Part shown: positions 8,775 through 51,159 of the stretch, piece after piece
How positions within the stretch are numbered: the first letter of the stretch is position 1
Layout of the letters: each line of letters opens with the position of its first letter
Source: an uncultured Bryobacteraceae bacterium
GTDB lineage: Bacteria; Acidobacteriota; Terriglobia; Bryobacterales; Bryobacteraceae
Assembly (NCBI GenBank): GCA_938003835.1
Contig: CALKXJ010000008.1
Span: 248,001-312,000, forward strand
Length of the DNA: 64,000 nt
Reading direction: 5' to 3'
The notes under the pieces: generated by a model
Told to the model about the DNA's origin: nothing
The model's database searches: none
The model's input: the letters and a program-made list of their open reading frames with translations, nothing else
Made by a program: the position numbers and the translations under genes

Positions 8775-8781
8775 GCTCCAC

Positions 8782-8813: not shown

Positions 8814-8819
8814 TAGAAT
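8814..8819 (+). promoter_or_regulatory. -10-like hexamer for the MBL-fold gene
   Basis: TAGAAT ends 8 nt before the ATG at 8828. No Shine-Dalgarno of normal spacing could fit in the resulting transcript, and no good -35 is visible 17 bp upstream. Confidence 0.42.
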
Positions 8820-8827
8820 AGTCCGGG

Positions 8828-10636
8828 ATGCGAAGACGCGATCTGCTCATTTCGGCTGTGATGCCGTGGTTCGGCGCCTCCTCCGACTGGCGCCGCATCG
8901 AGCGCAACGGCCGGGTCCTCTCGTTCTACCGGGAAGCGGAGGGTTCGGAGCTGGTGCTGCTCACGGATACCCGGCGCGATGCAATCGAGCTTCGCACCGG
9001 CTCGAAGGCGGACGTGGTGGCGCCGGAGGCGGAGGCGCATCTGCTCGAGCGGCCGAAAGAGTTCTGGATGGCGTTCCTCGCCAGACGCTACCACGATTAC
9101 GCCGCGATCAACACCAAGGTCCCAATCGAGCCGGTGCGCGTCAGCCGCAAGGTGCGCGACGGGGACCGCATCGAATGGCAGGGCCTTCGCTTTGAGGTGG
9201 TGGCGACGCCGGGCTGGACGCCGGGCGCGGTCTCCTATCTGGTGGAGCTCGACGACAGGCGCGTGGCCTACACGGGCGGTTTGATCCTCGCCGGCGGCCG
9301 GCTGCCGGATCTTTATAGTTTGCAGGAGGCCATCCCGGAGCTCAAGCTCCGCGCCTACCACGGCTATGCAGCCCGCGCCTCGCAGTTGATCGCCAGCCTC
9401 CGCCGACTCGCGGCACGCCGGCCGGACGTGCTGGTGCCTTCGCGCGGGGAGGCGATTCTCGAGCCGGCCGCCGCCATCGAGGCGCTGATCGCACGGCTCA
9501 AGCGCGTCTTCCAGGAGCATTTCTCCACCGATGCGCTTCGCTGGTACTTCGGCGACGAGCACTGGCAGAAGCGGGCCGGGCGCCTGCTCGAAGGGGCGGC
9601 GCCGGAGCCCATGCCGATGGCTGAAACGGCCCCGTTGCCCGGCTGGATCCGGGCGATCGGCAACTCACGCCTGATCGTTTCAGAAAGCGGCGAGGCGCTG
9701 CTGGTGGACTGCGGCTACGACAAGGTCATCGCGGAGCTCGAGGAGCTGCGCCGCCAGGACATGATCACGCGCCTGGTGGGAATCTTCGTCACGCACTATC
9801 ATGACGATCACACCGACAGGGTCGAGCAGTGCGCCGGGCGCTTCTCCTGCCCGGTCTACACGACGGAGATCCAGCGCGCGGTGCTGGAACAGCCTTCTCG
9901 TTTCTATCTGCCCTGCCTGACTACGGAGCCGGTGCGGCGGCTCGAAGCGCGGCGCCACTCGAGCCGCATGAAATGGCAGGAATACGAGCTCACCTTTCTG
10001 GACTTCCCCGGCCAGACCTATTACCACAGCGCCCTGCTGGTGCGGCGGGGCGGCCGCGAAACCGTTTGCTTTGTCGGCGACTCGTTTACGCCATCCGGCA
10101 TGGACGACTACTGTTTGCGCAACCGCTGCCTGCTCGGCGACGACGACGGCTACCTGCGCTGTTTACGGCTGGTGGAAGAACTGCCGGCGGGTACGTTCCT
10201 CGTCAACCAGCATGTCGAGCCGATGTTCCGCTTCACGCGGGCGCAGATCGAGTTCATGAAGGCTTCCTTCGAACGGCGCCGCGCCGCGATCGGAGAGCTT
10301 ACTGGTTGGCCTCATCCTAGCTTCGCCGTCGACGACCAGTGGGTGCGCTTCGATCCCTACGAGTGGAGCGGCGGCGCGCCGGTGCGCCTTTCTCTGGCAG
10401 TTCTTAACCACGCCGCGCGGCCGCTTGAATGTGCGCTGAGCCTCGAGCTGCCCGAGGGCTGGCGCGCGGGCCGCAGCGCGTTTCGTGCGACGCTCGCGCC
10501 GCGCCGCGAAACCCGGTTCCCCGTCGAGCTCGCACCCCCGCCGGGCGCGAGCGGCCTTCACGTCGTCGGGGCGGCCGTCCGGCTGGCGGGCGTGGACGTA
10601 GCAGAATCCGCAGAGTGCCTGGTTCGCCTGAGTTGA
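8828..10636 (+). CDS. tandem metallo-beta-lactamase-fold hydrolase with inactive first copy
   Basis: 602-residue protein made of two MBL-like halves and a C-terminal beta-sandwich. The second half (about 265-480) has a full metal site: THYHDDH (H323, H325, D327, H328), a later H in FPGQTYYHS, D in VGDSF and H in VNQHVEP. The first half (about 25-240) keeps the fold landmarks (ATPGWTPGAVSYLVE, AYTGG, VLVPSRGE) but lacks the HxHxDH loop, and the usual His of TPGHTPG is Trp, so it should not bind metal. Residues about 500-600 look like an Ig/NEW3-type domain. The N-terminus MRRRDLLISAV may be a weak Tat-type signal. Substrate unknown. Convergent with the next gene. Confidence 0.75.
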   Translation: MRRRDLLISAVMPWFGASSDWRRIERNGRVLSFYREAEGSELVLLTDTRRDAIELRTGSKADVVAPEAEAHLLERPKEFWMAFLARRYHDYAAINTKVPIEPVRVSRKVRDGDRIEWQGLRFEVVATPGWTPGAVSYLVELDDRRVAYTGGLILAGGRLPDLYSLQEAIPELKLRAYHGYAARASQLIASLRRLAARRPDVLVPSRGEAILEPAAAIEALIARLKRVFQEHFSTDALRWYFGDEHWQKRAGRLLEGAAPEPMPMAETAPLPGWIRAIGNSRLIVSESGEALLVDCGYDKVIAELEELRRQDMITRLVGIFVTHYHDDHTDRVEQCAGRFSCPVYTTEIQRAVLEQPSRFYLPCLTTEPVRRLEARRHSSRMKWQEYELTFLDFPGQTYYHSALLVRRGGRETVCFVGDSFTPSGMDDYCLRNRCLLGDDDGYLRCLRLVEELPAGTFLVNQHVEPMFRFTRAQIEFMKASFERRRAAIGELTGWPHPSFAVDDQWVRFDPYEWSGGAPVRLSLAVLNHAARPLECALSLELPEGWRAGRSAFRATLAPRRETRFPVELAPPPGASGLHVVGAAVRLAGVDVAESAECLVRLS

Positions 10637-35878: not shown

Positions 35879-38554
35879 TCAATATTGAGCGCCCTCGCGC
35901 GGCGGGTGCCCCTTGAGGTCGGGGCGGTCAAATCCACGCGTACCGGCGCGCTTGCGCTCCGGAATGATCGGGTCGAAGGTTCTGAGCGCGGTGATCGGCC
36001 CGACGCTGCGCGCCGTTTTCAGGCGCAGGGTGAGGATCTGTTGTGGCCGCACCGTGATGCGGTACTCGGAATCTCCGGCAGCCTCCACCGGCGTGCGCTG
36101 CTCGCCCGTCAGGTTGGTCCAGGCGGCCTCCGAATGGGGCAGCCGAGGGCGGATCCAGGCCTCGCCGGCGGCTCCGAATGCCTCTACGGCCCGAATCTCG
36201 ATTTCGTCCTCGATGCGGCGCAGCGCTTCGACGATCAGATTGTCCGATGTCTCCAGGGCGGCGCCTTCCATCTCGGGCGGCCACTGGCCCGGCGCGGCGA
36301 GCAAGGGACTGTTGTACTCGAACGCCAGATGGGGAATGCGCACGCTGCGCCAATCGCCCGCGTGCGCCACAAGCGCGTACTCGAACCGGTGCAGGCCGTC
36401 GCCCGTCGTCCACCGGCAGTTCTTGTCCCAGTAGTAGGTGCGGAACGTATTGTGCAGGAGCACGACGGCCGTGTTGCCGTCGAGCTCGCGGCCCGTGACG
36501 CCGCGATCGAGCAGCGCCACGCCCCCTCCGTCGGCGAGCGTGTAGTGGGACCAGCGGATCACCGGCACAATCCCGCGGTTCCGCCCGGCCAGCGTTTCCG
36601 TCGGCTCCGGCCAGGCGCCGTGGGAGAAGCCGTAGGGGATGGCGCGGCGAACTTCCGTGACGGTTCCGGCAAGCGGAAACAGGGCGCTTAGGATGATGCC
36701 GTCCGGGAGATTGTCCACCTCGGTGACGAAGTCGATCCGCGGCACACGGGTGTGAAAGCGAGTGACGCGGCGAAGCGAGCCCTTCAGAAACGGGCAGGTG
36801 CTCTCGACAATGACGGCCAGCGGGCCGTGAAAGACCCGGATGCGATTCGGCGCTTCGCCCGAGCGCCGCACCGGCACGCGGTCCGGGCGCTCGGGAATCT
36901 CATGGCCGAAGACTTGCTTAGCGTGCTTCTCCCCGCGTTGCTCGGCCACCACCTCGTTGGCCGGGCCGCTCAAGAGCTCGCGGGCATTGGGCTTGAGGCG
37001 CAGGCTGGTGAGAGCGCCCGTGGCGGGATCCACCCGCGCCGTGTAGAACTCGGTTTCAATCACTGGCGGAAGCGCTCCGGCCTGCGACGGGGTCGGGGCT
37101 CCGGCCTTGAGCGCGACCGTCGCGCAGCCGAGAGGCGCGGCCGGAACCTCGACGAGAGCCGTCTGGCCGTCTTCGAGGAGCTGGGCTGAGCCCTCGGCGA
37201 CGGTGCGCCCCGGCGGCAAGCGCAACTCGACGGGGGCCAGGCGCTTCCAGTTCACCGGGTTGAACACGGCGAGCGCTTCGGCGCGTGCGGCGCCGGCGAA
37301 CGCCTCCTCCCGCGTTCGCCGGGCGATCTCTTCGAGCGTGTCGAAGCGATCGCGAATGTCCCAGCTCGTGGGATGCTCCCAGACCGCGTGAACCGCAGCG
37401 CCCCAGAGCGAGTTGCGGTCCATTAACAGGGCCAGGAGCAGCCAGGCGTTCCTCAGATCCTGCGCCGGATAGGCCGTGTTCCGCCGGAGGCTCGAAACCG
37501 TGGCGAGCGCCTCGACGGCAGCCAGCGAGTGTTCCGCGCTGCGGAAGCGCTGTTTCATCGGAGGCGCACTTACCCAGAAGGCGCTCCAGCCATAGATGCG
37601 CGAGCCGCTGCGCACCGTCCTCAGCGGGAAGTTGGCGCGACGAAACTCGTCATACCATTGCGAGAACGTAGAAAACCTCAGGGCCACCTGCGGCCGGCTC
37701 GCCTCCCAGATCTCGAGAAGCTCCTGCGGATACTTCTTGTACAGGAAGGGCAGGGAATAGTCAGCCTGTCCGGCCAGCGCCACTAGCGGGGCGCCTTTCG
37801 GGAAGCGTGCCTGCTGGCGCTCCACCAGGGCGCCGACCTGCTTGAGGACCTCCTCAGGCGGCAGCGCCTCCTGGGCCAGCATCACTTCCCGCAAGGCCTC
37901 CGCATAGCCCCCCGGATTGACGGCCAGCGCCCGGCTTCCGTCGGGCGATTCGATCCAATGGACCGACTCCATCGGATCGGCCACCTGCGCCGTCGCCTCC
38001 GGCGGAGAGGTGGGATTGTAGCGGCAGTAGACGAATGTTTCCAGGTTCAAACCCCGGACGATCTGAGCCATCTGCTCGTGCCAGCCGCAGATGTCGATCA
38101 TCCAGCAATGGCGAGGGCGCACGCGCATCACCTGCTGGTACCATTCGAGGCCGAGCACGCCCTGCATCACCAGCGCCTCGCCGCCGGAAAGATTCACTGT
38201 CGGCTCGACGACAAAGGCATTCACCAATTCCGCCTTGCCGCCGGCCACTAGGCGCTGGAGTTCGGTCACGCGCGCGGGATGGCGCTCGAGCATGGTGATC
38301 AGATGCGGAATCTCGGAGAAGACATACCGATACTCGGCATCTCGAATGGCGTGATCCTGATGGTCCAGATAGCCGTACAGGCAGTAGTTTCGCTCCACCG
38401 AATAGGGAGCCAACCAACCCATGCAGGCCGGGTGGAGGTTCGGGACCACATGCAGGATCTGCCGGGCCCGGCCACGGCAGCCAAAGGCGGTAGTCACGGC
38501 CGCCGCGAGGAATCCTCGCCGCGGAATCGCTTTCAGCGGGCTGTTTTTGTCCAT
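35879..38554 (-). CDS. exported GH38-like (alpha-mannosidase-related) protein
   Basis: 891-residue protein with a twin-arginine signal that ends in a possible lipobox (PRRGFLAAAVTTAFGCRG). The N-terminal half follows the GH38 deacetylase-like fold: HVVPNLHPACMGW aligns with the usual H-x-D-x2-W, and CWMIDICGWHEQM with the nucleophile strand, D being present. In the first motif the metal-binding Asp is Ala. The C-terminal half (about 480-860) is the mannosidase beta domain (FYTARVDPATGALTSL, RRAIPYGF). The ATG at 38554 overlaps the S9 peptidase end by 22 bp. The frame stays open about 1.5 kb further upstream through the peptidase gene, which is not coding. Activity on mannosides is uncertain. 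Confidence 0.78.
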   Translation of the reverse strand: MDKNSPLKAIPRRGFLAAAVTTAFGCRGRARQILHVVPNLHPACMGWLAPYSVERNYCLYGYLDHQDHAIRDAEYRYVFSEIPHLITMLERHPARVTELQRLVAGGKAELVNAFVVEPTVNLSGGEALVMQGVLGLEWYQQVMRVRPRHCWMIDICGWHEQMAQIVRGLNLETFVYCRYNPTSPPEATAQVADPMESVHWIESPDGSRALAVNPGGYAEALREVMLAQEALPPEEVLKQVGALVERQQARFPKGAPLVALAGQADYSLPFLYKKYPQELLEIWEASRPQVALRFSTFSQWYDEFRRANFPLRTVRSGSRIYGWSAFWVSAPPMKQRFRSAEHSLAAVEALATVSSLRRNTAYPAQDLRNAWLLLALLMDRNSLWGAAVHAVWEHPTSWDIRDRFDTLEEIARRTREEAFAGAARAEALAVFNPVNWKRLAPVELRLPPGRTVAEGSAQLLEDGQTALVEVPAAPLGCATVALKAGAPTPSQAGALPPVIETEFYTARVDPATGALTSLRLKPNARELLSGPANEVVAEQRGEKHAKQVFGHEIPERPDRVPVRRSGEAPNRIRVFHGPLAVIVESTCPFLKGSLRRVTRFHTRVPRIDFVTEVDNLPDGIILSALFPLAGTVTEVRRAIPYGFSHGAWPEPTETLAGRNRGIVPVIRWSHYTLADGGGVALLDRGVTGRELDGNTAVVLLHNTFRTYYWDKNCRWTTGDGLHRFEYALVAHAGDWRSVRIPHLAFEYNSPLLAAPGQWPPEMEGAALETSDNLIVEALRRIEDEIEIRAVEAFGAAGEAWIRPRLPHSEAAWTNLTGEQRTPVEAAGDSEYRITVRPQQILTLRLKTARSVGPITALRTFDPIIPERKRAGTRGFDRPDLKGHPPREGAQY

Positions 38555-40611
38555 CGGTCGATCCAATCCAGAAAGGTTTCGTACCAGAGTATGCTGTTGC
38601 GCGGCTTCAGGATCCAATGCCCTTCGTCCGGAAACAGCAGGAGCTTCGAAGGCACCCCCTGCATCTGGAGCGCGGTAAAGAGCTGCAAGCCCTGCCCATA
38701 GGGCACGCGGAAATCGAGTTCGCCGTGGATGACCAGCGTGGGAGTGAACAGGTCCTTGACATACTGGCTGGGCGAGAATTTCCGGTACAGCTCTGGGTTG
38801 TCCCAGGGCATGCCCTGGAACTCCCACATCGGGAACCAAAGCTCTTCGGTCTCCAGCGTCTTGCTGGGCAGGTCGAAGACGCCGGCGTGAGAAACGAAGG
38901 CCCGGAACCGCTGCGTGTGTCCCATCATCCAGTTCACCATGTAGCCGCCGAAGGAGCCGCCGGCCGCCGCCATCCGGTCGGGGTCGACGTAGGGGAGTTT
39001 GGCGACATGATCGACCACCGCCATGATATCTTCGTAGACCTTGCCGCCCCAATCGGCATTGATCTCGTCGGTGAACCGCTGGCCGTAACCGGTCGAGCCG
39101 CGGGGGTTGGGAAGCACCACCACGTAGCCCGCGCCGGCGAAGACCTGGGCGTTCCAGCGATAGTGCCAGCTCTCTGTCCAGGCGCTTTGCGGTCCGCCGT
39201 GAATCAGAAACAGAGCCGGATACCGCTGATCGGGCCGGAAGTTGGCCGGCTTGACCAGAAAGCTGTACACGGGCGTCTGCTGGGCGCCATCGACGCGAAA
39301 CTCTTCGAACGGCGTGAGCTGATAGCGCTCGAGCAGCTCGTCGTTGAGCCGCGTGAGCTGGAGCGGAGTTCCGCCAGTCGAACTGGCGGCATAGATCTCC
39401 ACCGGGCGCGAGCCGCTCTGCGCCGTGTAGACCATCGTCTTTCCGTCCCGGCTGAGCTGCTGGTCGCCCAGCGTGCTCGAGCCTGAGGCCACGACGCGCG
39501 AGGCGCCGCCGGTCGCCGCGATCATGTGAATGGCCGAGCGACCGCGGTCCTCGGTGGTGAAGAACAGCCGGGAAGAGTCCGGCGCCCAGGTGAAGCTCGT
39601 CACTGGCCGGTCGAGCGCGTCGGTGAGAACCGTCACCTGTTCGGTATCCCATTCCGGCTTCGGAGGCTCGGCGGCGCCGGGCGAGGCGGGCGGCGGCGCC
39701 TTGCGCCTCATCAGCACGAGCCGCCAGCGATCGCTTTCGTAGCCGGCCCGCATCTGGCTTCGCCAGGCAAGGTAATTTCCGTCCGGGGAATACAAAGGCG
39801 AGTTGTCCGCCCCCGGCGCCTGCGTCAGGCGTACCGGGGCGCCTCCTTCGATCGGGACGACGAACAGCTCCGTGTTGGTGTGCGTGGCGGGATTGGGGTC
39901 CGGCTTGGCGACATAGCAAAGCTCCTTGCCGTCCGGCGAAACGGCGTAATCGTCGGGTCCGCCGAGCGAAAACGGCGGCACATCGAGCTGGCCCGGCGTG
40001 AGGTCGCGCACCTGCCCGCTCGCGATCGACACGGCCAGAATATGCTTCCGGCGGGCCGATTTCCAACTGTCCCAGTGGCGATACAGCAGCGCCTCATAAA
40101 TGCGCGCTTTGACCGGCGAGGCGCGCTCGGCTTCCAGCCGCTGCCGGTTGCAGGCATCGTCCGCGCAGTCGGGATAGACCTCGCTTGTGAAGATCAACGT
40201 ATCGCCATCGGGAGAAAACAGCACACCGTCGGCCTCGGTGGCCAGGTTGGTGACCTGCTTAGGATTGCCGCCGTCGGCGTCCATGATCCAGACCTGAGAG
40301 GAGCCGCTGCGGTCGGAGATGAAGGCGATGCGGCGCGAATCGGGCGACCAGCGCGGCCGATGGTTGGCGGTGCCGGCCCAGGTGATCCGCCGCGGCTCGC
40401 CGCCGCGGACCGGCACGACATAGATGTTTCTCGGCCTGAGATTCCTTTCGAGATCCACGGTCTGCACCACAAAGGCGACGCTCGAGCCGTCGGGTGCCAG
40501 TTGCGGGTCGCTGATCCGCTTCACCTCCATCAACGCCCGCACGGTGAAGGGCGCCTTCTGCGCCGGCATGGCCACGGCGGCCAACAAAAGCAGGCCAACG
40601 ATGCGAGCCAT
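38533..40611 (-). CDS. secreted S9-family prolyl oligopeptidase
   Basis: 692-residue serine peptidase of the acylaminoacyl-peptidase/DPP type. Signal peptide MARIVGLLLLAAVAMPAQ. A WD40-like (TolB) beta-propeller occupies about 30-410 (AWSPDSRR-like repeats such as RPRWSPDSRRIAF and SPDGNYLAWRS). The C-terminal alpha/beta-hydrolase carries GGSFGGYM with nucleophile S553, and PDEGHWI with the catalytic His. An ATG six bases upstream (40617) touches the TAGAAT box, so the ATG at 40611, 7 nt after it, is preferred. It is followed by the overlapping GH38-like gene, suggesting joint breakdown of glycoproteins. Confidence 0.92.
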   Translation of the reverse strand: MARIVGLLLLAAVAMPAQKAPFTVRALMEVKRISDPQLAPDGSSVAFVVQTVDLERNLRPRNIYVVPVRGGEPRRITWAGTANHRPRWSPDSRRIAFISDRSGSSQVWIMDADGGNPKQVTNLATEADGVLFSPDGDTLIFTSEVYPDCADDACNRQRLEAERASPVKARIYEALLYRHWDSWKSARRKHILAVSIASGQVRDLTPGQLDVPPFSLGGPDDYAVSPDGKELCYVAKPDPNPATHTNTELFVVPIEGGAPVRLTQAPGADNSPLYSPDGNYLAWRSQMRAGYESDRWRLVLMRRKAPPPASPGAAEPPKPEWDTEQVTVLTDALDRPVTSFTWAPDSSRLFFTTEDRGRSAIHMIAATGGASRVVASGSSTLGDQQLSRDGKTMVYTAQSGSRPVEIYAASSTGGTPLQLTRLNDELLERYQLTPFEEFRVDGAQQTPVYSFLVKPANFRPDQRYPALFLIHGGPQSAWTESWHYRWNAQVFAGAGYVVVLPNPRGSTGYGQRFTDEINADWGGKVYEDIMAVVDHVAKLPYVDPDRMAAAGGSFGGYMVNWMMGHTQRFRAFVSHAGVFDLPSKTLETEELWFPMWEFQGMPWDNPELYRKFSPSQYVKDLFTPTLVIHGELDFRVPYGQGLQLFTALQMQGVPSKLLLFPDEGHWILKPRNSILWYETFLDWIDRWTKTAR

Positions 40612-40618
40612 AGTCATG

Positions 40619-40624
40619 ATTCTA
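40619..40624 (-). promoter_or_regulatory. -10-like hexamer for the S9 peptidase
   Basis: TAGAAT on the minus strand, 7 nt before the ATG at 40611. It lies in the short divergent gap with the M28 peptidase gene and decides between two nearby in-frame ATGs. Confidence 0.42.
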
Positions 40625-40684
40625 TCGTCGCCGCCTGCGGCGGGCGCAGAGCCGCATGTTACGATGGTCAGCCGCAAAGAGACC

Positions 40685-42340
40685 ATGTTCGTCCGCCTCA
40701 CTCTTTACGCAACGCTGGCGCTGGTGCCGCTGGCGGGCCAGCAAACACCAGCGCCGTGGAACGACTCGATCCGGCGCGAGGAGCTCGAAGCCGACGTCCG
40801 ATTTCTGGCTTCCGAGCAAATGCAGGGCCGCCTAACCGGCTCCGTGGAGGCGGCCCTGGCGGCTCGGTTCATCGAGGCCCGCTTCCGGCGACTGGGACTG
40901 AAGCCCCTGGGCCCGGATGGCGGCTTCCTGCATGCCTTCACCCTCTGGTGGGCGGAGCTCGCTGAGCCCAATCGGCTGCGAATCGATTTCGGCAAGGGCC
41001 GGCAGCGCGAGGGGAGGTTGCTCGACGAGTTCGCGCCCTCGCTGTTCACCGCCAATGCCCGTGCCTGTGCCGGAGTCGCCTTTGCGGGCTACGGCATCGA
41101 GGCGCCGGAGCTCGGCTGGAACGATCTGGCCGGAGAAAAGGTCGCCGGCAGGATCCTGCTGGTACTGGAAGGCGAGCCGGACCCGGACGATCCCAAGAGC
41201 ATCTTCGACGGCTTGGTCACCTCGATTCACGCCGATGCGCTGCGCAAGATCCTCAACGCTCAGCGGCGCGGCGCCGCCGGCGTCCTCTTTGTCGATCCGG
41301 CACACGCAGAGAAGGGCGTCAACCGCTTTGCCGCTCAGGCGCGCAGTCAGTGGCCGGAGACGCCGCCGCGCCTCAGACGCTTCGCCCTGGCTTCCCAAGC
41401 CGACGCTGTTCGGATTCCGGTGGCCTCCGTGGCCCCGGCTCTGGCGGAAACACTGTTCGGCGAGCGGCGTCTGGCGGAGCTGGTCAAAGAGGCACGCCGT
41501 CCCGGGGGATTCCCGGCGATCGCTCTGCCCGGCATCGAGGTCGAGCTCGAGACCCGGCTGCGGCGGCACTACCTGGATGACCATAACGTCGTCGCGGCCT
41601 TGGAGGGCTCTGATGCCGCTTTCCGAGAGGAGGCGGTATTGATCGGGGCCCACTACGACCACAACGGCGCCGACGCAAGCGGCATCTTTCCCGGCGCAGA
41701 CGACAACGCCTCCGGCGTGGCCGGGTTGCTAGAGATCGCCGAGGCGTATGCGCTGGCGGCCCGCGGCGGCCAGCGCCCCCGCCGATCGGTGGTCTTCGCG
41801 GCCTGGGGCTCTGAGGAGCGCTGCTGCGGTCCGTTGCTAGGCGCCTGGGCGTGGACCGAGCATCCCTGGTGGCCGCTCGAGAAAACCGTGGCGGTCCTCA
41901 ACCTGGACATGATCGGCCGCAGCGAAGAGGTGCCCGAGGGCGGCGGCCCCCGCTTCCGCGGCCTTCCCGTTCAGACAGCGGCGGCCAATGCCAACGCGGT
42001 GAATCTGATCGGCTCAAGCTTCAGCCCGGAGCTTCGGCAGGCGGCTGAAGTGGCGAACCGCGGCGTCGACCTCGAGCTTCGCTTCCGCTATGACAACAAC
42101 CGGTCAAATCTGTTGCGCCGAAGCGATCACTGGCCGTTTCTTCAGCGCGGCGTTCCCGCGCTCTTTATTCACACGGGCCTCCACCCGGACTACCACACAC
42201 CGTACGACCGGCCGGAGAAGATCGACTACGCCAAAGCAGTCCGGATCGCCCGATTCGTTCACCAATTGAGCTGGAACCTCGCCGAGGCGGCGAGCCGGCC
42301 AAAGTTGCTCACGCCCAGGCCGGTGCCGGAGCCGGACTGA
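40685..42340 (+). CDS. secreted M28-family zinc aminopeptidase with PA domain
   Basis: 551-residue exported peptidase. Signal peptide MFVRLTLYATLALVPLAGQ. A protease-associated insert (about 100-280: VAFAGYGIEAPELGWNDLAGE) precedes the catalytic domain. The two-zinc site is visible: GAHYDHN (H323), GADDNASG, GSEE, LNLDMIGR and the last ligand in HPDYHTPYD. Likely trims N-terminal residues from peptides released by the divergent S9 peptidase. The frame is open 261 bp upstream without similarity; the ATG at 40685 begins the signal peptide. Confidence 0.92.
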   Translation: MFVRLTLYATLALVPLAGQQTPAPWNDSIRREELEADVRFLASEQMQGRLTGSVEAALAARFIEARFRRLGLKPLGPDGGFLHAFTLWWAELAEPNRLRIDFGKGRQREGRLLDEFAPSLFTANARACAGVAFAGYGIEAPELGWNDLAGEKVAGRILLVLEGEPDPDDPKSIFDGLVTSIHADALRKILNAQRRGAAGVLFVDPAHAEKGVNRFAAQARSQWPETPPRLRRFALASQADAVRIPVASVAPALAETLFGERRLAELVKEARRPGGFPAIALPGIEVELETRLRRHYLDDHNVVAALEGSDAAFREEAVLIGAHYDHNGADASGIFPGADDNASGVAGLLEIAEAYALAARGGQRPRRSVVFAAWGSEERCCGPLLGAWAWTEHPWWPLEKTVAVLNLDMIGRSEEVPEGGGPRFRGLPVQTAAANANAVNLIGSSFSPELRQAAEVANRGVDLELRFRYDNNRSNLLRRSDHWPFLQRGVPALFIHTGLHPDYHTPYDRPEKIDYAKAVRIARFVHQLSWNLAEAASRPKLLTPRPVPEPD

Positions 42341-42355
42341 GGGCAAACTCGACCC

Positions 42356-42371
42356 GCCGGCCCGAGCCGGC
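42356..42371. other. small perfect hairpin after the M28 gene
   Basis: GCCGGC-CCGA-GCCGGC forms a six-bp stem just downstream of the M28 stop codon. It is followed within 13 bp by the larger hairpin at 42384-42421. No T-run follows, so a terminator role is only suggestive. Confidence 0.3.
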
Positions 42372-42383
42372 AGGCCGGACCGC

Positions 42384-42421
42384 GGGGGCCAGTGGGCCAG
42401 CGGCTGGCTCTGTGAGCCCCC
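42384..42421. terminator. nested hairpin between convergent genes
   Basis: GGGGGC (42384-42389) pairs with GCCCCC (42416-42421), and inside it GCCAG (42396-42400) pairs with CTGGC (42404-42408) around a three-base loop. It lies between the M28 gene and the convergent unknown gene ending at 42445, where a bidirectional terminator is expected. No poly-T tract is seen on either strand. Confidence 0.35.
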
Positions 42422-42444
42422 GGTCGGCCGGATGAGTTCAGTTC

Positions 42445-43335
42445 TCAGGGTGCCAGACCCAGCGCCTCCCGGGCCACTCGCCGGAAGCTCGGATCGTCGG
42501 GACCCACCACGCGACCGGGACGCTCCGTCGTAAAGGTCCAGGTCAGCATGGGTCCGTCGGGGGTGAACAGCAGGCACAGGCTCCGGTCCGATCCGGGAGA
42601 CTTTTGAGCTGCCTGTTCTAGGATCCGGTTGATCTCTTCCGTGGCCGCCGCCAGCCTTTCGTCATGTGAAGCTGTTCGCGCTGCGGCGTTGAGCCGCGGG
42701 GACACCTCGCAGTCGTTGCCCGGTCGGACACATTTCCAGAACTCTGGCCCTCCCGGGTAGGGCCAGAAGACCTCAGCAAGGCGCGTCGCGCCCGCTGCTC
42801 GGCCCGAGGGTTGAATGCCCAAGAGATTCGCAATCGCCTGCGGATCGCGGGTCGGTCGAGGGCTTTGCGGGTCCTTCTCAACGTCGGAAAGGCCCCCCCG
42901 AGGCGACGCCGCACCCGCTCGGGCTGCGCCCGCGGCCAAGCTGGGACGGGCAGGCCGAGGCGTCGGTTCGGCGAGGTCGGCCCCGGTCTTCGCCCACAGC
43001 AGGACGGGACCGTAGAGGCTTCGGTAAAGGCATAACTTCTTACCCTGCGGCGGCGTGAGAGAGTTCAGAATTCGGTTGATCTGTGCCGTCGCCTCACTGA
43101 GCGTCGCATCATGGTTCTCCGTGAGTCGCGCGGCAGCAAGCCAGGTGGGTCGGATGAAGCAATCGCACCACCCCTTTCTTGTGCAGTGAAGCACTGGACC
43201 CTGGGGTTCCGGTGTCACGTAGGCTTCTCTGCAATCATCATCGGCGAGCTCCGGGACTCGCCGGGCGGTTGGCTGCGCCAGCCCGATGTGGGGACCCAGG
43301 GTGAGAACAACCACAATCAACGATTTTAGCTGCAT
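42445..43335 (-). CDS. unknown secreted protein with a duplicated Cys-containing domain
   Basis: I do not recognise a family. The 296-residue protein has a clear signal peptide (MQLKSLIVVVLTLGPHIGLAQ) and a GGAGGG site 8 nt before the ATG. Two copies of a domain of about 70 residues are visible, at about 50-118 and 201-269. Shared features in order: C (51/202), C (59/209), AAAR, HD, a helix ending INRIL (86-90/235-239), LCL (C102/C254), and GP-x-L-x-W-x2-T. Three cysteines per copy are conserved in position, suggesting disulfides or metal binding. A Pro/Ala/Gly-rich linker (120-165) separates them. The upstream gap of about 730 bp and the adjacent PQQ protein give no firm functional clue. Confidence 0.8.
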   Translation of the reverse strand: MQLKSLIVVVLTLGPHIGLAQPTARRVPELADDDCREAYVTPEPQGPVLHCTRKGWCDCFIRPTWLAAARLTENHDATLSEATAQINRILNSLTPPQGKKLCLYRSLYGPVLLWAKTGADLAEPTPRPARPSLAAGAARAGAASPRGGLSDVEKDPQSPRPTRDPQAIANLLGIQPSGRAAGATRLAEVFWPYPGGPEFWKCVRPGNDCEVSPRLNAAARTASHDERLAAATEEINRILEQAAQKSPGSDRSLCLLFTPDGPMLTWTFTTERPGRVVGPDDPSFRRVAREALGLAP

Positions 43336-44065
43336 TCACATGCCCTCCGAGGAGTTTTTCAACTGCTACTCAGGTAATGTGTCACAGCTGCGTGAAAATT
43401 CTCACGGCCACTTGCGTCGCCAAGTCTACTCTAGCTGCTCCCGACGCCTTCGGCGGCCCGCGTCGCAGGCACTGCGCAGCCGTGGATTTTATCAATCTTG
43501 TCGGCCGTTTCCTTTCTTTGTCGATTTACCTCGAGGGCCGTTGCGGCCCGTTGACGAGGGCGAGCGCCCTCATCCGAGCCGACGCCGCGGGGAGCCGCAG
43601 AGCCGCTTCTGGCGCTCAGGGACCCGGCAGGCGGGATTCCGGGGATCGCCTGGACGGATGGAGCTGAGGCTCAGCGGGGACGCCGCCGAATCGGGCGCAA
43701 GCGTTACAGCACGGTTGGTTGTCGCCGGCCCGCGGCCGCTGTGCTCCGCAGCGGGCGCGACAGACCAGCGGCCTGCTCGTCGGAAGCCTGGGACTGTAGT
43801 TTTGTCATCGGCATCTTGGAAAGTTTTCCCTGATGGGGAAGGGCAAGCAAAATATTTCAGGAATTAAGTAATTTTCTCATTCCCTGCACACAAAGGGCAG
43901 CGTAGAATGGGGAGTCGATCGGAATTTGCTGGACGCATGGCACTTATTCGGCGGAATTGTGAGTTGAGTCATGACCTCGGCGCCGGCGGGCCTCTGCTGG
44001 CTTGGTCGTTTGGCCGGCGAGCTGCTCAGAGTTTGAGACTTGGAATCTTGTAACGGGATCTTCGT
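43336..44065. other. gene-poor interval of about 730 bp
   Basis: Divergent gap between the duplicated-domain gene and the PQQ-propeller gene. Two open frames cross it on the plus strand (43286-43867 and 43377-43667), but their translations are Arg/Ser/Pro-rich, lack a ribosome site and resemble no family, so I do not call them. The interval holds two adjacent perfect hairpins (43535-43549 and 43556-43571) and one TAGAAT box (43903-43908) not followed by a start codon. Base composition drops to AT-richer sequence at 43,790-43,900. Confidence 0.5.
43535..43571. other. paired perfect hairpins in the gene-poor interval
   Basis: GGGCCG-TTG-CGGCCC (43535-43549) and GAGGGC-GAGC-GCCCTC (43556-43571) lie six bases apart. 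Each has a perfect six-bp stem. They could belong to a structured RNA, a protein-binding site or a decayed terminator; nothing here decides. Confidence 0.35.
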
Positions 44066-45568
44066 ATGAAAATCTTACATCGCATTGTAATGGGAAAGCT
44101 ACTGATCCTTGTTCTGGCCTGGCCGCTGATGGCGGCCGACTGGCCTCAGCTCCAGCGCGATGCGGCTCGGAGCGGTTTTCAGCCGGCTGAAACGCTCTAC
44201 ACCGGCGGCACGACAAGCACGTCCCCGCCGGGCTATGGGCCGCCGGCCTGGGCCTGGAACCAGCCCGGCCCGCTTTCAGGCCAACCGGTCGTCGCCGGCG
44301 GGATCGTGGCGATCGCCACCGTCGACGGGCGCGTCTTCGCCCTGGAGGAGGCGACAGGGGCGCAGCGCTGGAGCGTCTCCGTGGGAGCGCCTGTCCTCGG
44401 CACGCTGGCCATCGCCGACAACAAGGTGCTGGCAGCCACGCAGGCGGGGGAGGTGGTGGCGCTGGCGCTGGCGAGCGGGCAAAGGGTTTGGACGTATCAG
44501 GGAGGGCGCAAGGGCTTCGCCGCCTCGCCGGCGGTGGCCAACAACCGCATCTATATCGGCTCGAAGGACGGTCGCTTCCATGCGCTCGATCTGGGCAGCG
44601 GGCAGGCGGTGTGGGTCTTTGAAGTGGGCGGAGTTTCCGACGCCGGCGCCGAGCGGGCTCCGATTCTCGCTTCGGCGGCCGCGCTCGGCAATCGCGTCTT
44701 CTTCGGCGCGGAGAACATGTACGCCTATGCGCTCGATGCGACCACGGGAGTCCGTCTCTGGCGGCGCCGGCTCTACGGGCAGACCTTCGGTCAGCTCTGG
44801 CCGGTGGCCAGCAACCAGGCCGGAGGCGTGGTGATCTTTCGCACAGCGCCCGTTTACCAGTTCTCGCAGGTTCTGATCGACGACGAATGGTTTCTCGAGC
44901 AAGCCACAGGCCGTACCTCCGCCGGCAATCCAATGGGGACGCCCGGCGACTGGCTTGTCGAGCAGCGCGCCATCAGCCAGCGCCTGGCGTCGAATCCTCA
45001 CCGGCAATCGTTTTTCGTTTTGCGCGCGAGCGACGGTGCGGACCGTTACTCGCAGCCGATGCCGATTCTCTACACAGGCGGCAGCGGCGACGTGCCGGCG
45101 CCCCCGGTGGTGGATGACACGGGCGGCCGGGCCTGGATCACGGCCCGCTCCGTTTATGCCCGCTTTGATGGCTTCGGCGTTCGCAGCTACGGAGACCTGA
45201 TGAAGCTCAACCTGAATTTTGACCCAACCGTTTACGCCGATGGCCGGTCGCCGGAGAGCCGCCTGGGTCTGCTGTTTTTCGCCTGCCGGGGTGAGTCGGG
45301 CTGCAAGATCTCTTGGGAGGACTTTCACAAGATCTCCGATGAGTTTGAGGTTCTTACCGGCGCCCGCAACGGGGTGGTCGTCTCGAACTGGGTCTCCGTC
45401 GGCGGCGTCGATTTGGCGACGGAGCGGACGTTCAACATTCGCTTCTATAGCACCGACGACACGGGCGGGGCCGGGCTCTACGGCATGCACGTCGGCGCAG
45501 TGATCGCCAACGGGCGCGTCCTGGTTCGCGACACGCAGGGGATCAAGTGCTACCGCAGATCCCAGTGA
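44066..45568 (+). CDS. secreted PQQ-like beta-propeller protein
   Basis: 500-residue exported protein. Signal peptide about 1-24 (LLILVLAWPLMA), then WPQLQRDAARSGFQ, a common opening of PQQ-binding-like propellers. Blades at about 75-240 repeat the pattern GRVFALEEATGAQRWSV, GEVVALALASGQRVWTY, GRFHALDLGSGQAVWVF and MYAYALDATTGVRLWRR. The C-terminal 200 residues are less regular. No catalytic residues of quinoprotein dehydrogenases could be assigned, so a structural or binding role is as likely as an enzyme. Twenty bases separate its stop from the start of the giant glycosidase, and they are probably one operon. Confidence 0.8.
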   Translation: MKILHRIVMGKLLILVLAWPLMAADWPQLQRDAARSGFQPAETLYTGGTTSTSPPGYGPPAWAWNQPGPLSGQPVVAGGIVAIATVDGRVFALEEATGAQRWSVSVGAPVLGTLAIADNKVLAATQAGEVVALALASGQRVWTYQGGRKGFAASPAVANNRIYIGSKDGRFHALDLGSGQAVWVFEVGGVSDAGAERAPILASAAALGNRVFFGAENMYAYALDATTGVRLWRRRLYGQTFGQLWPVASNQAGGVVIFRTAPVYQFSQVLIDDEWFLEQATGRTSAGNPMGTPGDWLVEQRAISQRLASNPHRQSFFVLRASDGADRYSQPMPILYTGGSGDVPAPPVVDDTGGRAWITARSVYARFDGFGVRSYGDLMKLNLNFDPTVYADGRSPESRLGLLFFACRGESGCKISWEDFHKISDEFEVLTGARNGVVVSNWVSVGGVDLATERTFNIRFYSTDDTGGAGLYGMHVGAVIANGRVLVRDTQGIKCYRRSQ

Positions 45569-45588
45569 GGCACGCGGAGGTGACGACG

Positions 45589-48500
45589 ATGATGAGGCGC
45601 TCTCTGATTTCCTGGCTGGCGATCACCCTGCCCTGGCCGGCTCTCGCTATCGATGCCACCGAGGCCCGCCGCTACGCGCTCGAGCGGCTGGTGGTCGACA
45701 ACGTCTCCTCGGCCGCCGATCCGCTCCGCGCTGAACTCGAGGTCGAGGTCCAACGCTTCCTCGATTCCTCCGAGCGGAATGGGCGGCTGGCGCCGGTTTA
45801 CTTCGAAACCGGAATCATCGGAAGCTACATTTTGCACGGCAACCCGGCCGAATCGCTGTACTTTCTCACGGAGGCGCTGCCGTACGTGTCCAGCGCCACC
45901 CGGCAGCGCCTGCGCAACTATCTGGCGGCCTCGGTGCGCGCTGTCGATCCCACCACGGTCGGCTTCGAGCACTGTGAGGTCGGCTGGGGCCCGTGCGAGC
46001 TTTCAGGCAACCGGCGCGAGTTCTACCTCCTGCCCGCCCCGCCCAATCCCGATCCGCTGCGGCCGAATATCTGGCCGCCGCCACAGGTGCCGCCAGAAAC
46101 CATCTACATCGTTTGGCGTTATGCGGATCTGACCGGCGACTGGAACTTCATCTCGACGACTACGCCGCCTTCCGGCGAGCGCTGGCAGCGGCTGCGGAAT
46201 CTGTTCCAAGCGATCCCGGCCACGCCGGACCGGTATGGCCAGGTCGTCGGAGCGATCGGCTGGCTGCGCCTGCTGGAACGCTACGGCCTTTCCAACGATC
46301 CGAGCTACAGTGCCGCTCTCGAGAAGGTGCGGGCCGGCCTGACCGCCGGCGCCAATTTCAGCGGTTTCCTCCAGACGGCCTTCAACCGGTTCATCGGCAG
46401 CCGCCAGCACGACTGGGCATTTCTGCCCTTCCACTTTCATCGCGACTCGAATGCCGTGGGCATCCACTTTGCTCCCGAGATCGGCCGTTTCCTGGCCGAA
46501 CACGCGCTCGAGGACGTGCGGCGGCGCGTGAGTTTCAATCCGCGCGAGAACGAACCGGGGCAGCCGAAAGCTATCGAGGCGCACTGGCCGCACTGGTATC
46601 TCTATCGGGGCGATTATCCGCCCATCGAGAAGTGGGCGGGTCATTACGGCGAAAACCACATGGTTACGCCCGACACGCCCTGGGCCCTGTTCATGATTCA
46701 CGCCTACGTCTACAACGAGCCGGGTGAGCAGTTGGTGCGCTATCTCGACGTTCCCTATTGTGTGGGCGATCTCGCGCACCTGCACCGACTGACGGCGGCG
46801 ATTCAAGCCTATGGCAGCAAGCGGTGGGCTCCGGTGAGCGGCAGCCCGCCGCCCGCCAACCAGCCACCCGTGGTCAGCCTGACGTCGCCGGCCAACGGGG
46901 CGACTTTCACGGCTCCGGCCACGGTGACGATGGCCGCCACCGCTTCGGATCCGGACGGCAGCATCGCCCGTGTCGAGTTTTTGGTGAACGGATCGGTTGC
47001 CGGAACCGATACCAGTGCGCCCTATTCCTACACGGTGACGTTGTCGACCGCGGGAACCTACACGCTGGCCGCGCGGGCCGTGGACAACCAGGGGGCGGCG
47101 ACCACGTCGGCTGCCGTCACAATCACCCTGAATGCCCCGGCCGATCCTCCGCCGGGCGGAGGCACGCCGCCGCCGGTTCCGAATCTGCTCACGAACGGCG
47201 GCTTTGAAACCGGCAACCTCGACGGTTGGTATCTGCTCTGGGGGCTGACGGTGTCGCCGCAGGCCGCCGCCAGCGGCGCCTACGGCCTCAAGATGATGAC
47301 CGGCGGGCGAATCGATCAGACCTTCCCGACGGTCGTTGGCCGGCGTTACTACGTGATGGCACGGGTACGGATCGATCGCGAGCTGGTCCGGCCCGACTGG
47401 GGCGGTCTGCGCGTGCAGATCACCAGTTACGACTGGAACGAGCTCGCGGCGGAGACCCTCAGTGCGGCGACATCGCCGCCTGGGACGTGGAAACGCATCG
47501 ATCTGAGTTTCGTCGCCACGACCGAGCAGTCGCGCATCAGCTACGAAAGCTTCACGGGCACCGGTCGATGGGAGGCGAGCGCCGACGACTTCGCCGTCAG
47601 CGAGCAGCCGATCCCACCCGACCCGGGCACTTCACCTCCCAATCAACCGCCGACGGTAGCGCTGACGGCGCCGTCGAACGGCGCCACCTTCACGGCCCCG
47701 GCAAGCGTGACGATGACCGCAAACGCCTCCGATCCCGACGGGAGCGTGGCTCGGGTCGAGTTTCTGGTGAACGGCTCGGTCGCCGGCACCGACACCAGCG
47801 CCCCGTATTCCTACACGGTGACGTTGTCGGCTGCGGGTACCTACACGCTCGCCGCGCGCGCCGTTGACGACCGGGGCGCCACGGCGACTTCGGCGGCCGT
47901 CACCATCACCGTGAACGCTCCGCCGCCACCGCCTCCGGGAGGCGGCAACCCGCCGCCGGCCCCGGGGGCGAATCTGCTCGTGAATCCTGGTTTTGAGACG
48001 GGAAACCTCAACGGGTGGTCCGGCCAGGCGCAGGTAACCCAAGCCGACAGGCGAAGCGGCTCCTGGTCGGCCCGTTTCACGAACGGATCGCTCGAACAGG
48101 TTGTTGCCACGACTCCGGGCAAAACCTACAAGCTGACCGCTTGGGTCCGCATCGCCAGCCAGAGTGGCAACGACTGGGGCGGCTTTCGCATCGAAGTGCA
48201 GAGCTTTGATTGGCGCCAGCTTGCCTTCTCCGGCTGGATCACGCTCGAGTCGGCCGGCAGCGGCTGGACGAAATATGCGCTGAGCTTCACCGCGGCCACC
48301 TCCCAGAGCCGCATCCAAATCGGCTATTTCGGCGGGCCGAACCAACAGATCCTGGCCTATGCCGACGATTTGGCGGTCTTCGAGAAGACCGGTTCGGGGC
48401 TTCCGCCCCAGATCACTCCGCGCCTTACGGTGGTCAACGACAACGGCTCCGGCGCCGCGACGCTCAACTATGGCTTCGAAGGCGACGACGCCGACGGGGC

Positions 48501-51159
48501 GATTGTGCGCGTCAACTGGAGCTTCGGCGACGGCGCCCGTTCCCAAGCCTTTGCCGGCAGTCGCCGCGTAGCCGTCCCCGGCGATTACACGGCCGTTTTC
48601 AAGGCCGCCGATGACGACGGCAACGTGGTCACGGTCAATCTTGCCTGGCGGCTGCGGGCGCCGAGCGGGTCGCCCTGGATCCGTATCGATCAACCGGCCG
48701 AAGGCGCGACGGTGAGTACTTCGTCGACCATCGTTCAGGGAGCGGCCGGCGGCAGCATTGCCCAGATTCTGGTGAGCACCGATCGCGACAGCATGGCGAT
48801 CGCTTCGGGCGGCGCCTCCTGGAGCGCCACGCTGCCGCTCAAGCCCGGCTGGAACCGCATCTTGGCCCAGGTGCGCGACACGCAGGGGCGGGTGCGGACG
48901 GCCGAGCGGCGGGTGCGCTTTGTGCCCTCCAGCGCGCTGTCGATCAGCAACTTCTCGGTTACCGGCAAGCTCGAGCGATGGGAGCCGGTCGAGATCCGCT
49001 TCCAGGTGAACAACTCTGCTGCCACGCACCCGCAACTGCCGTACGAGGCAAATCGGCCGCGGGGTCTCGAATGGGTGGACGGCATCAGCGTGGATGCCTA
49101 CTTCACGCGCGATAACTGGGTCACCTCGCTGCGCCGCCCGGCCTTCCTCCAGCAGCGCTACCAGCGGGCGCTCAAGAGCAACGAAGAGTGGATGTATCCC
49201 CAAGGGACGCCGGTCTGGACGGTGCGGTTCGCGCCGCCCGAAGCAGGCACTTGGAAGTACCGCATCGAAGTGCGCGAGGCCCGCGGCACGGCGCGCTCGG
49301 CCGAGCGCACGCTCACGATCAACCCGCCGACCGATCCGCTCAACCGCGGCCCCGTGCGCGTTTCGAGCCGCGACACGCGCTATTTCGAATACGCCGACGG
49401 CACGCCGTTCTTGGGCGGCGGCCACGGCATCGGGATCGACCATTTCCGCTTCTCCTACGACATGGAGCGGCAGCTCAACGAGATCGGAACGGGCAATCAG
49501 CAGATGTTCCGCTTCTGGATCGCCGGCCAGATCTGGGGCTCGGCCTGGGCGCCCTGGACTTCGCGAACGCTCTCGCACGAAGGCACGGTGGCGCCCTCGG
49601 GGCTGGGACTCGAGAGCGCTTACGGCGACGGCCTGGCGGCGCTGCGGCTGGATGACCGCAATCCGCTCATGTTCCAAGGGTTTGCCAGTTCGCACGCGGC
49701 CCTAATTCCGGGGCGTCGTTACCGCGTGCGGGTGCGGTGGCGGACCGAGGGTGTCACCGGCCCCAGGCAGGCCGGTCAGCCCTACGGGGTCGTGATCAAA
49801 TTCGTCACCTGGCCGGAGCCGGGCCAGACGGCCCAGTTCCCGATCGTGGTGCCGCACGTCGCCGGCGACACGCCTTGGCATCTGGGCTATGGCGACTTTA
49901 CGGCGACGGCCGACCTTCTGCCGAACCTCGCCGTGATCCTCGAAAACACTACCGGCGGCCGGGCGTTCGTCGACGAGATTGCGCTGCACGAAGTCCTTAG
50001 CGGTGGTCAACTGGGGCCGCAATTGCTGCAAACTCCCCGGTTCAATTCTCACGTGACCTACGATCCACGCCGTAGCGCCGGTCTGGATCACGTCTTTGCC
50101 GCCGCCAACCGGACGGGCGTGACTTTCCGGCTGGTGATCAGCGAGAAGCAGGAGTTCCTGCTGAACCACCTAGGTGCCGATGGGCTCATCGACCCCAATC
50201 CGGGCAATTTCAACAACGGTCCCGGGAGCCCGACCTGGCGCCTGCATGAGTATTACTGGCGCTACCTGTTCGCCCGCTACGGCGCCTACCGGTCGCTGCA
50301 TAGCTGGGAGCTGGTGAACGAGGAGGCGCCGGGGCCGACGCCTCACTTCCGGCTGGCGGCCAATCTGGCGACGCTGGCCGCACAGGACGGCAATCCGCAC
50401 CCGGCGACGACATCGACCTGGGCGACGTTCGCCGAAGAGGCCTGGAGGGCGCCCTTCAGCGCGCCGATCTCCAACGTCGATTTCCACGCCTATGTCCGCG
50501 CGGGCTGGATCGAGCCGCGCGAGGAGCTCGCCAACGATTCGGCTCGCTTCTTTGCCGAGTACGATCGCGCCTCGCTCGCCATGCGCTGGGGCAAGCCCGC
50601 CACCTGGGGCGAGCAGGGCATCAACGGCGCGCGCTCGACCGACGATGAAGACCCCTTGCTGGCGCGCGACCGCAACGGCGTGTGGTTACACAAGATGATC
50701 TGGGCGCGCACGGGACCCGGTGGCGTCTACCCGCTCTACTGGTGGACCGACAACATCTTCAACTACCGGCTCCATCGGCTCTACGGCAACTGGAACCGGT
50801 TCATGCAAGGCATCCCGCTCACCAGCGGCCGCTACGTGGATGCCGCGGCCCAAACGTCGCATCCGGATCTGCGCGTCTTCGGCCAGAAGGACACGACGGC
50901 CGGGAACGCGCACCTTTGGATCGACAACCGGCGGCACACCTGGCGCGCCGTTGTCGACGGCGTTTCGATTCCGCCGGTCTCCGGCACGGTCACAGTGAAT
51001 CTGGGGGCACCGAATGCCTCCTATGAGGCGATCTGGTATGACACGGCGACCGGCCAGCCGGTCGGCACCACCACGGTGACGGCGAATTCGGGCGGCGCCG
51101 TTGTACTGAACGTTTCCAATCTCGGCACCGACCGTGCGGTGCGCCTTCGGCGGCGCTAA
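45589..51159 (+). CDS. giant modular secreted glycoside hydrolase (clan GH-A-like)
   Basis: 1,856 residues; ATG at 45589 with GGAGGTGA 8 nt upstream and signal peptide MMRRSLISWLAITLPWPALA. Order: helical N-terminal domain of unknown type (about 25-420); Ig-like domain (424-517); carbohydrate-binding-like beta-sandwich NLLTNGGFETGNLDGW (about 532-674); second Ig (685-778); second beta-sandwich NLLVNPGFETGNLNGW (about 795-935); PKD-like (941-1024); another beta domain; DUF5060-like (about 1114-1245); then a TIM-barrel-like region with LVNEEAP (N1577-E1578, candidate acid/base) and TWGEQG (E1675, candidate nucleophile). A jelly-roll-like segment (about 1330-1467) seems inserted in the barrel. 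C-terminal beta region to the end. Substrate unknown; probably a polysaccharide. Confidence 0.8.
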   Translation: MMRRSLISWLAITLPWPALAIDATEARRYALERLVVDNVSSAADPLRAELEVEVQRFLDSSERNGRLAPVYFETGIIGSYILHGNPAESLYFLTEALPYVSSATRQRLRNYLAASVRAVDPTTVGFEHCEVGWGPCELSGNRREFYLLPAPPNPDPLRPNIWPPPQVPPETIYIVWRYADLTGDWNFISTTTPPSGERWQRLRNLFQAIPATPDRYGQVVGAIGWLRLLERYGLSNDPSYSAALEKVRAGLTAGANFSGFLQTAFNRFIGSRQHDWAFLPFHFHRDSNAVGIHFAPEIGRFLAEHALEDVRRRVSFNPRENEPGQPKAIEAHWPHWYLYRGDYPPIEKWAGHYGENHMVTPDTPWALFMIHAYVYNEPGEQLVRYLDVPYCVGDLAHLHRLTAAIQAYGSKRWAPVSGSPPPANQPPVVSLTSPANGATFTAPATVTMAATASDPDGSIARVEFLVNGSVAGTDTSAPYSYTVTLSTAGTYTLAARAVDNQGAATTSAAVTITLNAPADPPPGGGTPPPVPNLLTNGGFETGNLDGWYLLWGLTVSPQAAASGAYGLKMMTGGRIDQTFPTVVGRRYYVMARVRIDRELVRPDWGGLRVQITSYDWNELAAETLSAATSPPGTWKRIDLSFVATTEQSRISYESFTGTGRWEASADDFAVSEQPIPPDPGTSPPNQPPTVALTAPSNGATFTAPASVTMTANASDPDGSVARVEFLVNGSVAGTDTSAPYSYTVTLSAAGTYTLAARAVDDRGATATSAAVTITVNAPPPPPPGGGNPPPAPGANLLVNPGFETGNLNGWSGQAQVTQADRRSGSWSARFTNGSLEQVVATTPGKTYKLTAWVRIASQSGNDWGGFRIEVQSFDWRQLAFSGWITLESAGSGWTKYALSFTAATSQSRIQIGYFGGPNQQILAYADDLAVFEKTGSGLPPQITPRLTVVNDNGSGAATLNYGFEGDDADGAIVRVNWSFGDGARSQAFAGSRRVAVPGDYTAVFKAADDDGNVVTVNLAWRLRAPSGSPWIRIDQPAEGATVSTSSTIVQGAAGGSIAQILVSTDRDSMAIASGGASWSATLPLKPGWNRILAQVRDTQGRVRTAERRVRFVPSSALSISNFSVTGKLERWEPVEIRFQVNNSAATHPQLPYEANRPRGLEWVDGISVDAYFTRDNWVTSLRRPAFLQQRYQRALKSNEEWMYPQGTPVWTVRFAPPEAGTWKYRIEVREARGTARSAERTLTINPPTDPLNRGPVRVSSRDTRYFEYADGTPFLGGGHGIGIDHFRFSYDMERQLNEIGTGNQQMFRFWIAGQIWGSAWAPWTSRTLSHEGTVAPSGLGLESAYGDGLAALRLDDRNPLMFQGFASSHAALIPGRRYRVRVRWRTEGVTGPRQAGQPYGVVIKFVTWPEPGQTAQFPIVVPHVAGDTPWHLGYGDFTATADLLPNLAVILENTTGGRAFVDEIALHEVLSGGQLGPQLLQTPRFNSHVTYDPRRSAGLDHVFAAANRTGVTFRLVISEKQEFLLNHLGADGLIDPNPGNFNNGPGSPTWRLHEYYWRYLFARYGAYRSLHSWELVNEEAPGPTPHFRLAANLATLAAQDGNPHPATTSTWATFAEEAWRAPFSAPISNVDFHAYVRAGWIEPREELANDSARFFAEYDRASLAMRWGKPATWGEQGINGARSTDDEDPLLARDRNGVWLHKMIWARTGPGGVYPLYWWTDNIFNYRLHRLYGNWNRFMQGIPLTSGRYVDAAAQTSHPDLRVFGQKDTTAGNAHLWIDNRRHTWRAVVDGVSIPPVSGTVTVNLGAPNASYEAIWYDTATGQPVGTTTVTANSGGAVVLNVSNLGTDRAVRLRRR
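46858..47139 (+). repeat. Ig-domain coding repeat, copy 1
   Basis: 282 bp encoding an Ig-like domain from NQPPVVSLTSP to TITLNAP. About 80 of its 94 residues match copy 2 at 47641-47922, including an uninterrupted central block (VEFLVNGSVAGTDTSAPYSY). At DNA level the copies differ at many third positions. Confidence 0.9.
47641..47922 (+). repeat. Ig-domain coding repeat, copy 2
   Basis: Same 282-bp length as copy 1, with no insertion or deletion. Each Ig copy is followed by a carbohydrate-binding-like domain, so the duplicated unit is probably the Ig-plus-binding pair of about 750 bp (46858-47613 and 47641-48390). Confidence 0.9.

Follow-up and report, generated by a model that had tools for sequence, protein, structure and literature searches.

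The described systems closest to the locus reported here are the receptor Ser/Thr kinases with a PD40 propeller (Pkinase plus PD40). To our knowledge, the target of most bacterial Ser/Thr kinases of this kind is not known. Genes for such kinases adjoin the single-domain relatives of the protein that is the subject of this work, P0001; the kinases themselves are not homologous to the P0001 domain as far as seen, and they are absent near the P0001 gene. The small protein encoded beside them (loci L031-L046) is named in no library that we searched. No title or abstract opening in the literature that we surveyed describes the domain, or any small protein partnering these kinases, and two passages of PMC4644332 have no bearing on it. 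Our results turn P0001 from an orphan into a member of a family with two architectures, and the kinase-linked relatives give it a first functional handle.

The P0001 gene, which encodes two domains and a predicted exported protein, lies on the minus strand at positions 42445-43335 of the window (the whole stretch of 64,000 nucleotides that was analysed, from an uncultured Bryobacteraceae bacterium). It starts with ATG and codes for 296 aa followed by a stop codon; frame 1 of the plus strand over the same interval is interrupted by stops. All the features of the gene given below are on the minus strand. A Shine-Dalgarno-like GGAGG (43344-43348) precedes the ATG at a spacing of 8 nt. The N-terminus shows, by eye, a hydrophobic stretch and then a plausible cleavage site between GLA and Q (putative signal peptide, residues 1-20, 43276-43335), and the maximal 10-residue Kyte-Doolittle mean within residues 1-30 is 2.66. 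An earlier sequence-only reading of this DNA had pointed to a signal peptide and a good ribosome site, and both the GGAGG and a start that resembles a signal peptide are indeed there.

P0001 contains a duplication. Of 74 aligned residues, 34 are identical between its halves, and the local alignment of one half with the other scores 124, against a mean of 28.8 (sd 5.2, maximum 58) in 2000 shuffled pairs. C51/C202, C59/C209, AAAR, HD, INRIL, C102/C254 and GPxLxWxxT, which had been listed earlier as common to the two halves, are all present in both. Identity over the 74 aligned codons is 0.57, 0.60 and 0.34 at the first, second and third codon positions, and the identical residues use the same codon in just 12 of 34 cases. 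Since the differences fall mostly in third positions and few codons are shared, the repeat has been kept at the protein level in this frame. Half-half alignment and profile delimit a domain 1 core at residues 42-118 (C51, C59, HD, C102 and GPVLLW; 42982-43212) and a domain 2 core at residues 192-270 (C202, C209, HD, C254 and GPMLTW; 42526-42762). The first core is followed by a Pro/Ala-rich stretch (residues 119-161; 42853-42981), which is shorter in the orthologs, and then, still within domain 1, by the C-terminal motif TRDPQAIANLLGI (residues 162-174; 42814-42852), which is conserved in the orthologs and whose motif score was equalled in 2 of 5000 shuffles of residues 119-190. The corresponding motif of domain 2, PDDPSFRRVAREALGL (residues 279-294; 42454-42501), was placed by ortholog alignment; its ungapped motif score is weak, being equalled in 138 of 5000 shuffles, and its position coincides with a helix in the low-confidence domain 2 model. 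With these two motifs the repeat unit is longer than 70 residues, so that the roughly 70-residue repeat described earlier stands as a duplication and not in its length.

The two-domain form has orthologs. Among 257 genomes from the order of this bacterium, a profile matched three, the genome of P0001 and those designated G637 and G676, which belong to other genera of the same family. The G637 and G676 proteins, of 283 and 288 aa with the starts that we chose, are 46% and 41% identical to P0001 and have, as P0001 does, a hydrophobic N-terminus, both units and the LLGI and LGL tails. Each contains exactly six Cys, which match C51/C59/C102 and C202/C209/C254; the three-Cys unit recognized from P0001 alone is exactly what both orthologs conserve. 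P0001 carries two further Cys, C35 and C57, that are absent from the orthologs. Pairwise NG86 comparison of the three proteins gives dN of 0.37-0.63 and dS of 2.2-3.2, where dS is saturated and only the direction of dN versus dS is informative; the two-domain proteins are under purifying selection. The codon-level conservation of the repeat, together with two orthologs that carry the same duplication, bears out the earlier view that P0001 is a real gene. A tree of the domains separates the three N units from the three C units by one branch (91/90), as expected if the duplication is older than the divergence of the three genera; several branches of this tree are long, and the tool issued a warning of long branches meeting. 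When 399 genomes of the class were searched, three matched, and only the match in the own genome was convincing; G637 and G676 are missing among these matches and are presumably outside that sample. Among 61 near-relative genomes, seven matched at E <= 1, and none of the 60 other than the own genome did so convincingly: the six at E 0.05-0.4 were dropped as chance, one of them (L049) being rejected after its sequence had been read.

Judging from sequence comparison, the P0001 domain is part of a wider, unnamed family of mostly single-domain proteins of ~120 aa, reported here for the first time, whose members in distantly related bacteria carry a single copy of the domain. A profile built from the two halves matched 8 of 396 genomes of the phylum; an improved profile matched 7, including the own genome, and the six others held up. 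Searches around two of those genomes matched 15 of 119 genomes of one order and, for a class, 16 of 147, an overlapping set from which one weak match was dropped. Several matches were dismissed as chance: G159 (E 0.002), which vanished with the improved profile; G546 (E 0.002); G852 and G364 (E 0.003-0.004), which have internal stops; and two rows from G060 (E 0.002 and 0.009), in whose sequence no feature of the domain was seen on reading. The homology between the two forms is independent of the first profile, since three comparisons agree. A profile made from 16 kinase-linked proteins, with no exported row, detected both units of all three two-domain proteins at 56-75 bits, where 3000 shuffles reached no more than 4.9 bits; the reciprocal profile of the exported form detected 16/16 kinase-linked proteins at no less than 26.6 bits, where 3200 shuffles reached no more than 9.9 bits; and hhalign of the exported group against the kinase-linked group gave E = 7.4e-17. 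P0001 thus shares a homologous domain with the kinase-linked Cys4 group.

The kinase-linked Cys4 proteins, of 116-132 aa with start codons that we chose, share with P0001 the C-x5-7-C pair, HD and the long helix, L[SC], GxxLxW and a C-terminal L-x-[IL]. Unlike P0001, which has two domains and a hydrophobic N-terminus, they consist of a single domain with no visible signal peptide (the maximal 10-residue mean is 1.98 over the first 60 open-frame residues, against 2.66 in P0001); they also have two more Cys, and a Ser at the place of the third Cys of P0001. A further member of the family comes from Bacteroidota, as a 127-aa unannotated ORF in a region without listed genes (L063:11111-11494) of the plasmid NZ_CP087141.1 of Spirosoma sp. 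KNUC1025. It resembles P0001 in its HD helix, GPMLIW and both hairpin Cys, and differs from it in having a single domain and a His at the third-Cys place; its single-sequence match is weak (E = 0.07) and its placement in the tree unsure. The 24 kb of this plasmid locus contain no annotated kinase gene, and profile searches of plasmids found no relatives beyond the one in Spirosoma.

We fetched 16 loci of the single-domain form (L031-L046), 15 from the search of the 119 genomes and one from G350. At 16/16 loci the small gene is preceded directly, and on the same strand, by a kinase-like gene of one blastp cluster, whereas no kinase gene stands upstream of the P0001 gene. Fourteen of the upstream frames are of 909-991 aa, the other two being cut by the end of the stretch, and 53-162 nt (median 69.5) separate them from the small gene. 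The HRD and DFG kinase motifs are found in 15 of the 16 upstream proteins, and the sixteenth is cut before them. The one upstream kinase that was scanned against Pfam shows Pkinase and PD40 repeats, and between them a hydrophobic stretch that reads, by eye, as a membrane helix. Other neighbour clusters are common to at most 9/16 loci, and the pairing of kinase and small gene therefore exceeds general synteny. In G241 there are seven matches to the propeller half of the kinase, one of which adjoins the small gene. A kinase tree was built from 15 adjacent proteins (the shortest cut one was omitted) and 10 of the 23 non-adjacent matches listed, some of which appear to have other N-terminal domains. 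Fourteen of the 15 adjacent proteins fall in one clade (94/98) and the fifteenth is unplaced; the adjacency label requires two changes on this tree, a number as low in 0/500 shuffles, and a single change in only 15% of bootstrap trees. A single-domain form beside a kinase at each of the loci examined suggests a partner dedicated to that kinase, and the small Cys4 proteins are most likely its substrates or regulators. This lead may not extend to the exported form, because no Ser/Thr-kinase gene is found beside the P0001 gene or among the nine ortholog-neighbour proteins scanned, and a search of the own genome with the propeller half of the L031 kinase gave no match at E <= 1e-20.

The two architectures differ in their Cys. 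In the kinase-linked form C10, C15, C26, C33, H47, S74 and H89 are invariant in 16/16 proteins, and its four Cys and two His would fit a metal site in a cytoplasmic protein. The exported units retain C26 and C33 (as C51/C59 and C202/C209) and have Cys in place of S74 in six of six; C10 is absent, H89 is replaced, and the only possible equivalent of C15 among the exported proteins is C35 of P0001. P0001 therefore lacks the combination of four invariant Cys, S74 and H89 that characterizes the Cys4 group. All three exported proteins retain H47 (H75 in P0001) in unit 1, and both orthologs have lost it from unit 2.

We propose that the ancestral protein may have been a small mixed helix-strand domain, intracellular, acting as the partner of a kinase and probably bearing a Cys4 metal site. 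In the exported branch the domain would have been duplicated and a signal peptide gained, two of the four Cys would have been lost, and the invariant Ser that precedes the second pair of strands would have become a Cys. The loss of Cys and the change from Ser to Cys suggest that a hairpin disulfide probably took over from the metal site in each unit (C51-C59 and C202-C209, pairs that appear able to form such bonds); C102-C254 may clasp both units together. An odd number of Cys per unit leaves C102 and C254 without a partner in their own unit, and they must be bonded to each other, free or, in P0001 only, bonded to an extra Cys. The earlier proposal of two disulfide-stabilised domains is supported in part: its duplicated three-Cys domain stands, and its disulfides are putative. 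As for disulfide-forming machinery, the DSBA family was found in 5/5 genomes tested and VKOR in 2/5, neither of which is among the three genomes that encode the exported form.

Our preferred explanation, in which we place about as much belief as doubt, is that P0001 would be a non-enzymatic binding protein of two domains, exported (secreted or retained in the cell envelope), whose domain would descend from an intracellular partner of a kinase; that it binds something outside the cytoplasm is our best guess. A more far-reaching version, which we regard as tentative and rather doubtful, is that the domain might be an undescribed signalling module, inside the cell a Cys4 protein dedicated, as substrate or switch, to a membrane kinase that bears a propeller; in one family the module would have been duplicated and moved outside, with disulfides in place of the metal and a C102-C254 tie, to act there free of the kinase. 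With the contrasts between the two architectures in the Ser-to-Cys change and the loss of Cys, it can be tested clearly how a Cys domain from inside the cell is adapted to export.

It is unlikely, although this is the alternative that survives best, that each exported unit still holds a metal outside the cytoplasm, as a carrier or sensor, by C51/C59 (C202/C209) and a His. The four Cys and two His kept throughout the kinase-linked relatives speak for it, as does the retention of C51, C59 and H75 in unit 1 of all three exported proteins. It is hard to reconcile with the loss from the exported form of two of the four Cys (one possibly kept as C35, in P0001 only) and of one of the two His, while the other His has also gone from unit 2 of both orthologs.

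The P0001 gene is flanked by an M28 peptidase gene that converges on it and by a PQQ-propeller gene that diverges from it, and the gene of a PD40-propeller S9 peptidase lies beyond. The interval 38533-42340 holds the S9 peptidase (minus strand) and the M28 peptidase, which has a weak PA match (plus strand, converging on the P0001 gene). The ~730 bases at 43336-44065, between the P0001 and PQQ-propeller genes, contain no convincing gene; Rfam gave no match over 42300-44200, and a promoter and terminator scan near P0001 found nothing above shuffles and no promoter consensus. Nine proteins were scanned around the G637 and G676 genes. The neighbours in G637 are two sulfatases, a PhoD-like phosphatase and a TonB-type outer-membrane barrel. 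In G676 the divergent neighbour is a CHASE2 histidine kinase, and the others are a sigma-54 response regulator, two proteins of cytochrome c assembly and one that matches glucosaminidase weakly; no type of neighbour is common to the three exported-form loci among the proteins scanned.

P0001 could be read from this setting as an exported effector or inhibitor, directed against other cells or against exported proteases such as its S9 and M28 neighbours. It is a small, apparently exported, Cys-containing repeat protein, it is patchily distributed (3/257 genomes of the order), and peptidase genes adjoin its gene, but the nine ortholog neighbours scanned include no S9 or M28 peptidase, the two-domain proteins are under purifying selection, and PADLOC gave no match, so that we hold this reading to be improbable. 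An M28-containing gene cluster (cluster 5, one member of which was shown to be M28) also stands just upstream of the kinase in 7/16 of the relatives' loci; the link of the domain to M28 and S9 peptidases was nevertheless rejected as probably a coincidence, given that neither occurs among the nine ortholog neighbours. Quite improbable, too, is that P0001 serves a sensor kinase of the envelope from outside, as its ligand or co-sensor, a counterpart of what the single-domain form may be inside. In G676 (L081:4953-9357) the ortholog gene, at 8491-9357 on the plus strand, is divergent from a CHASE2-HisKA-HATPase gene, behind which lies the gene of the sigma-54 response regulator; this arrangement is seen, however, at one of the three exported-type loci, and the genes of P0001 and G637 have no such neighbour among the proteins scanned.

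An enzymatic role is the next to be weighed. C102 (and C254) might be the nucleophile of a thiol enzyme, working with the His-Asp of the long helix, and the relatives would then be Ser-His-Asp hydrolase-like. S74 and H47 are invariant in 16/16 kinase-linked proteins, an Asp directly follows H47 in 16 of 18 alignment rows, and a Cys stands at the place of the Ser in all six exported units. We consider this very hard to credit, since unit 2 of each ortholog has Phe instead of the His, the domain is very small, and no enzyme family or fold was matched convincingly. That P0001 is a chance ORF in GC-rich DNA, as a GC3 of 0.70 (0.81-0.83 in four neighbour genes) and a weak codon-position pattern might suggest, is already refuted by the codon-level conservation of its repeat and by two orthologs with dN well below dS.

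Searches of described families gave nothing convincing. In Pfam, the search that had been named in advance as a check, neither P0001 nor either half had a match, and family members reached chance level (best E 0.076 and 0.13). NCBIfam gave none for P0001 (best E 0.071 among nine members), PHROGs nothing convincing (best E 0.094), and the PDB sequences nothing convincing, with two matches to the P0001 query at E 1.8 and 2.5. Single-sequence searches of genome contigs and phages with P0001, and profile scans of genome contigs and viral contigs, found no relatives. No curated family that we searched covers P0001, in agreement with the placement of its domain outside named families by the sequence-only reading, whose interpretation as a duplicated, undescribed domain is right and whose observation is correct and somewhat understated.

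Structure models were made from a two-row alignment of both halves. The domain 1 model (pLDDT 64.6) has a strand hairpin, helices and a strand hairpin, and the domain 2 model (pLDDT 50.2) has a long helix, a hairpin and a C-terminal helix; a long helix followed by a strand hairpin is found in both of these weak models, and the first hairpin only in that of domain 1. Foldseek and VIA-align with the weak domain 1 model yielded no usable match; ROCK kinases made up many of the weak fold rows, with TM under 0.3, and were regarded as noise.

Beyond the PQQ-propeller gene, positions 45547-51159 of the window encode a protein of 1870 aa with Ig-like, PKD and CBM_4_9 domains and a DUF5060 match below threshold, the gene of which, from its listed start codon, shares 22 bases with the end of the PQQ-propeller gene.
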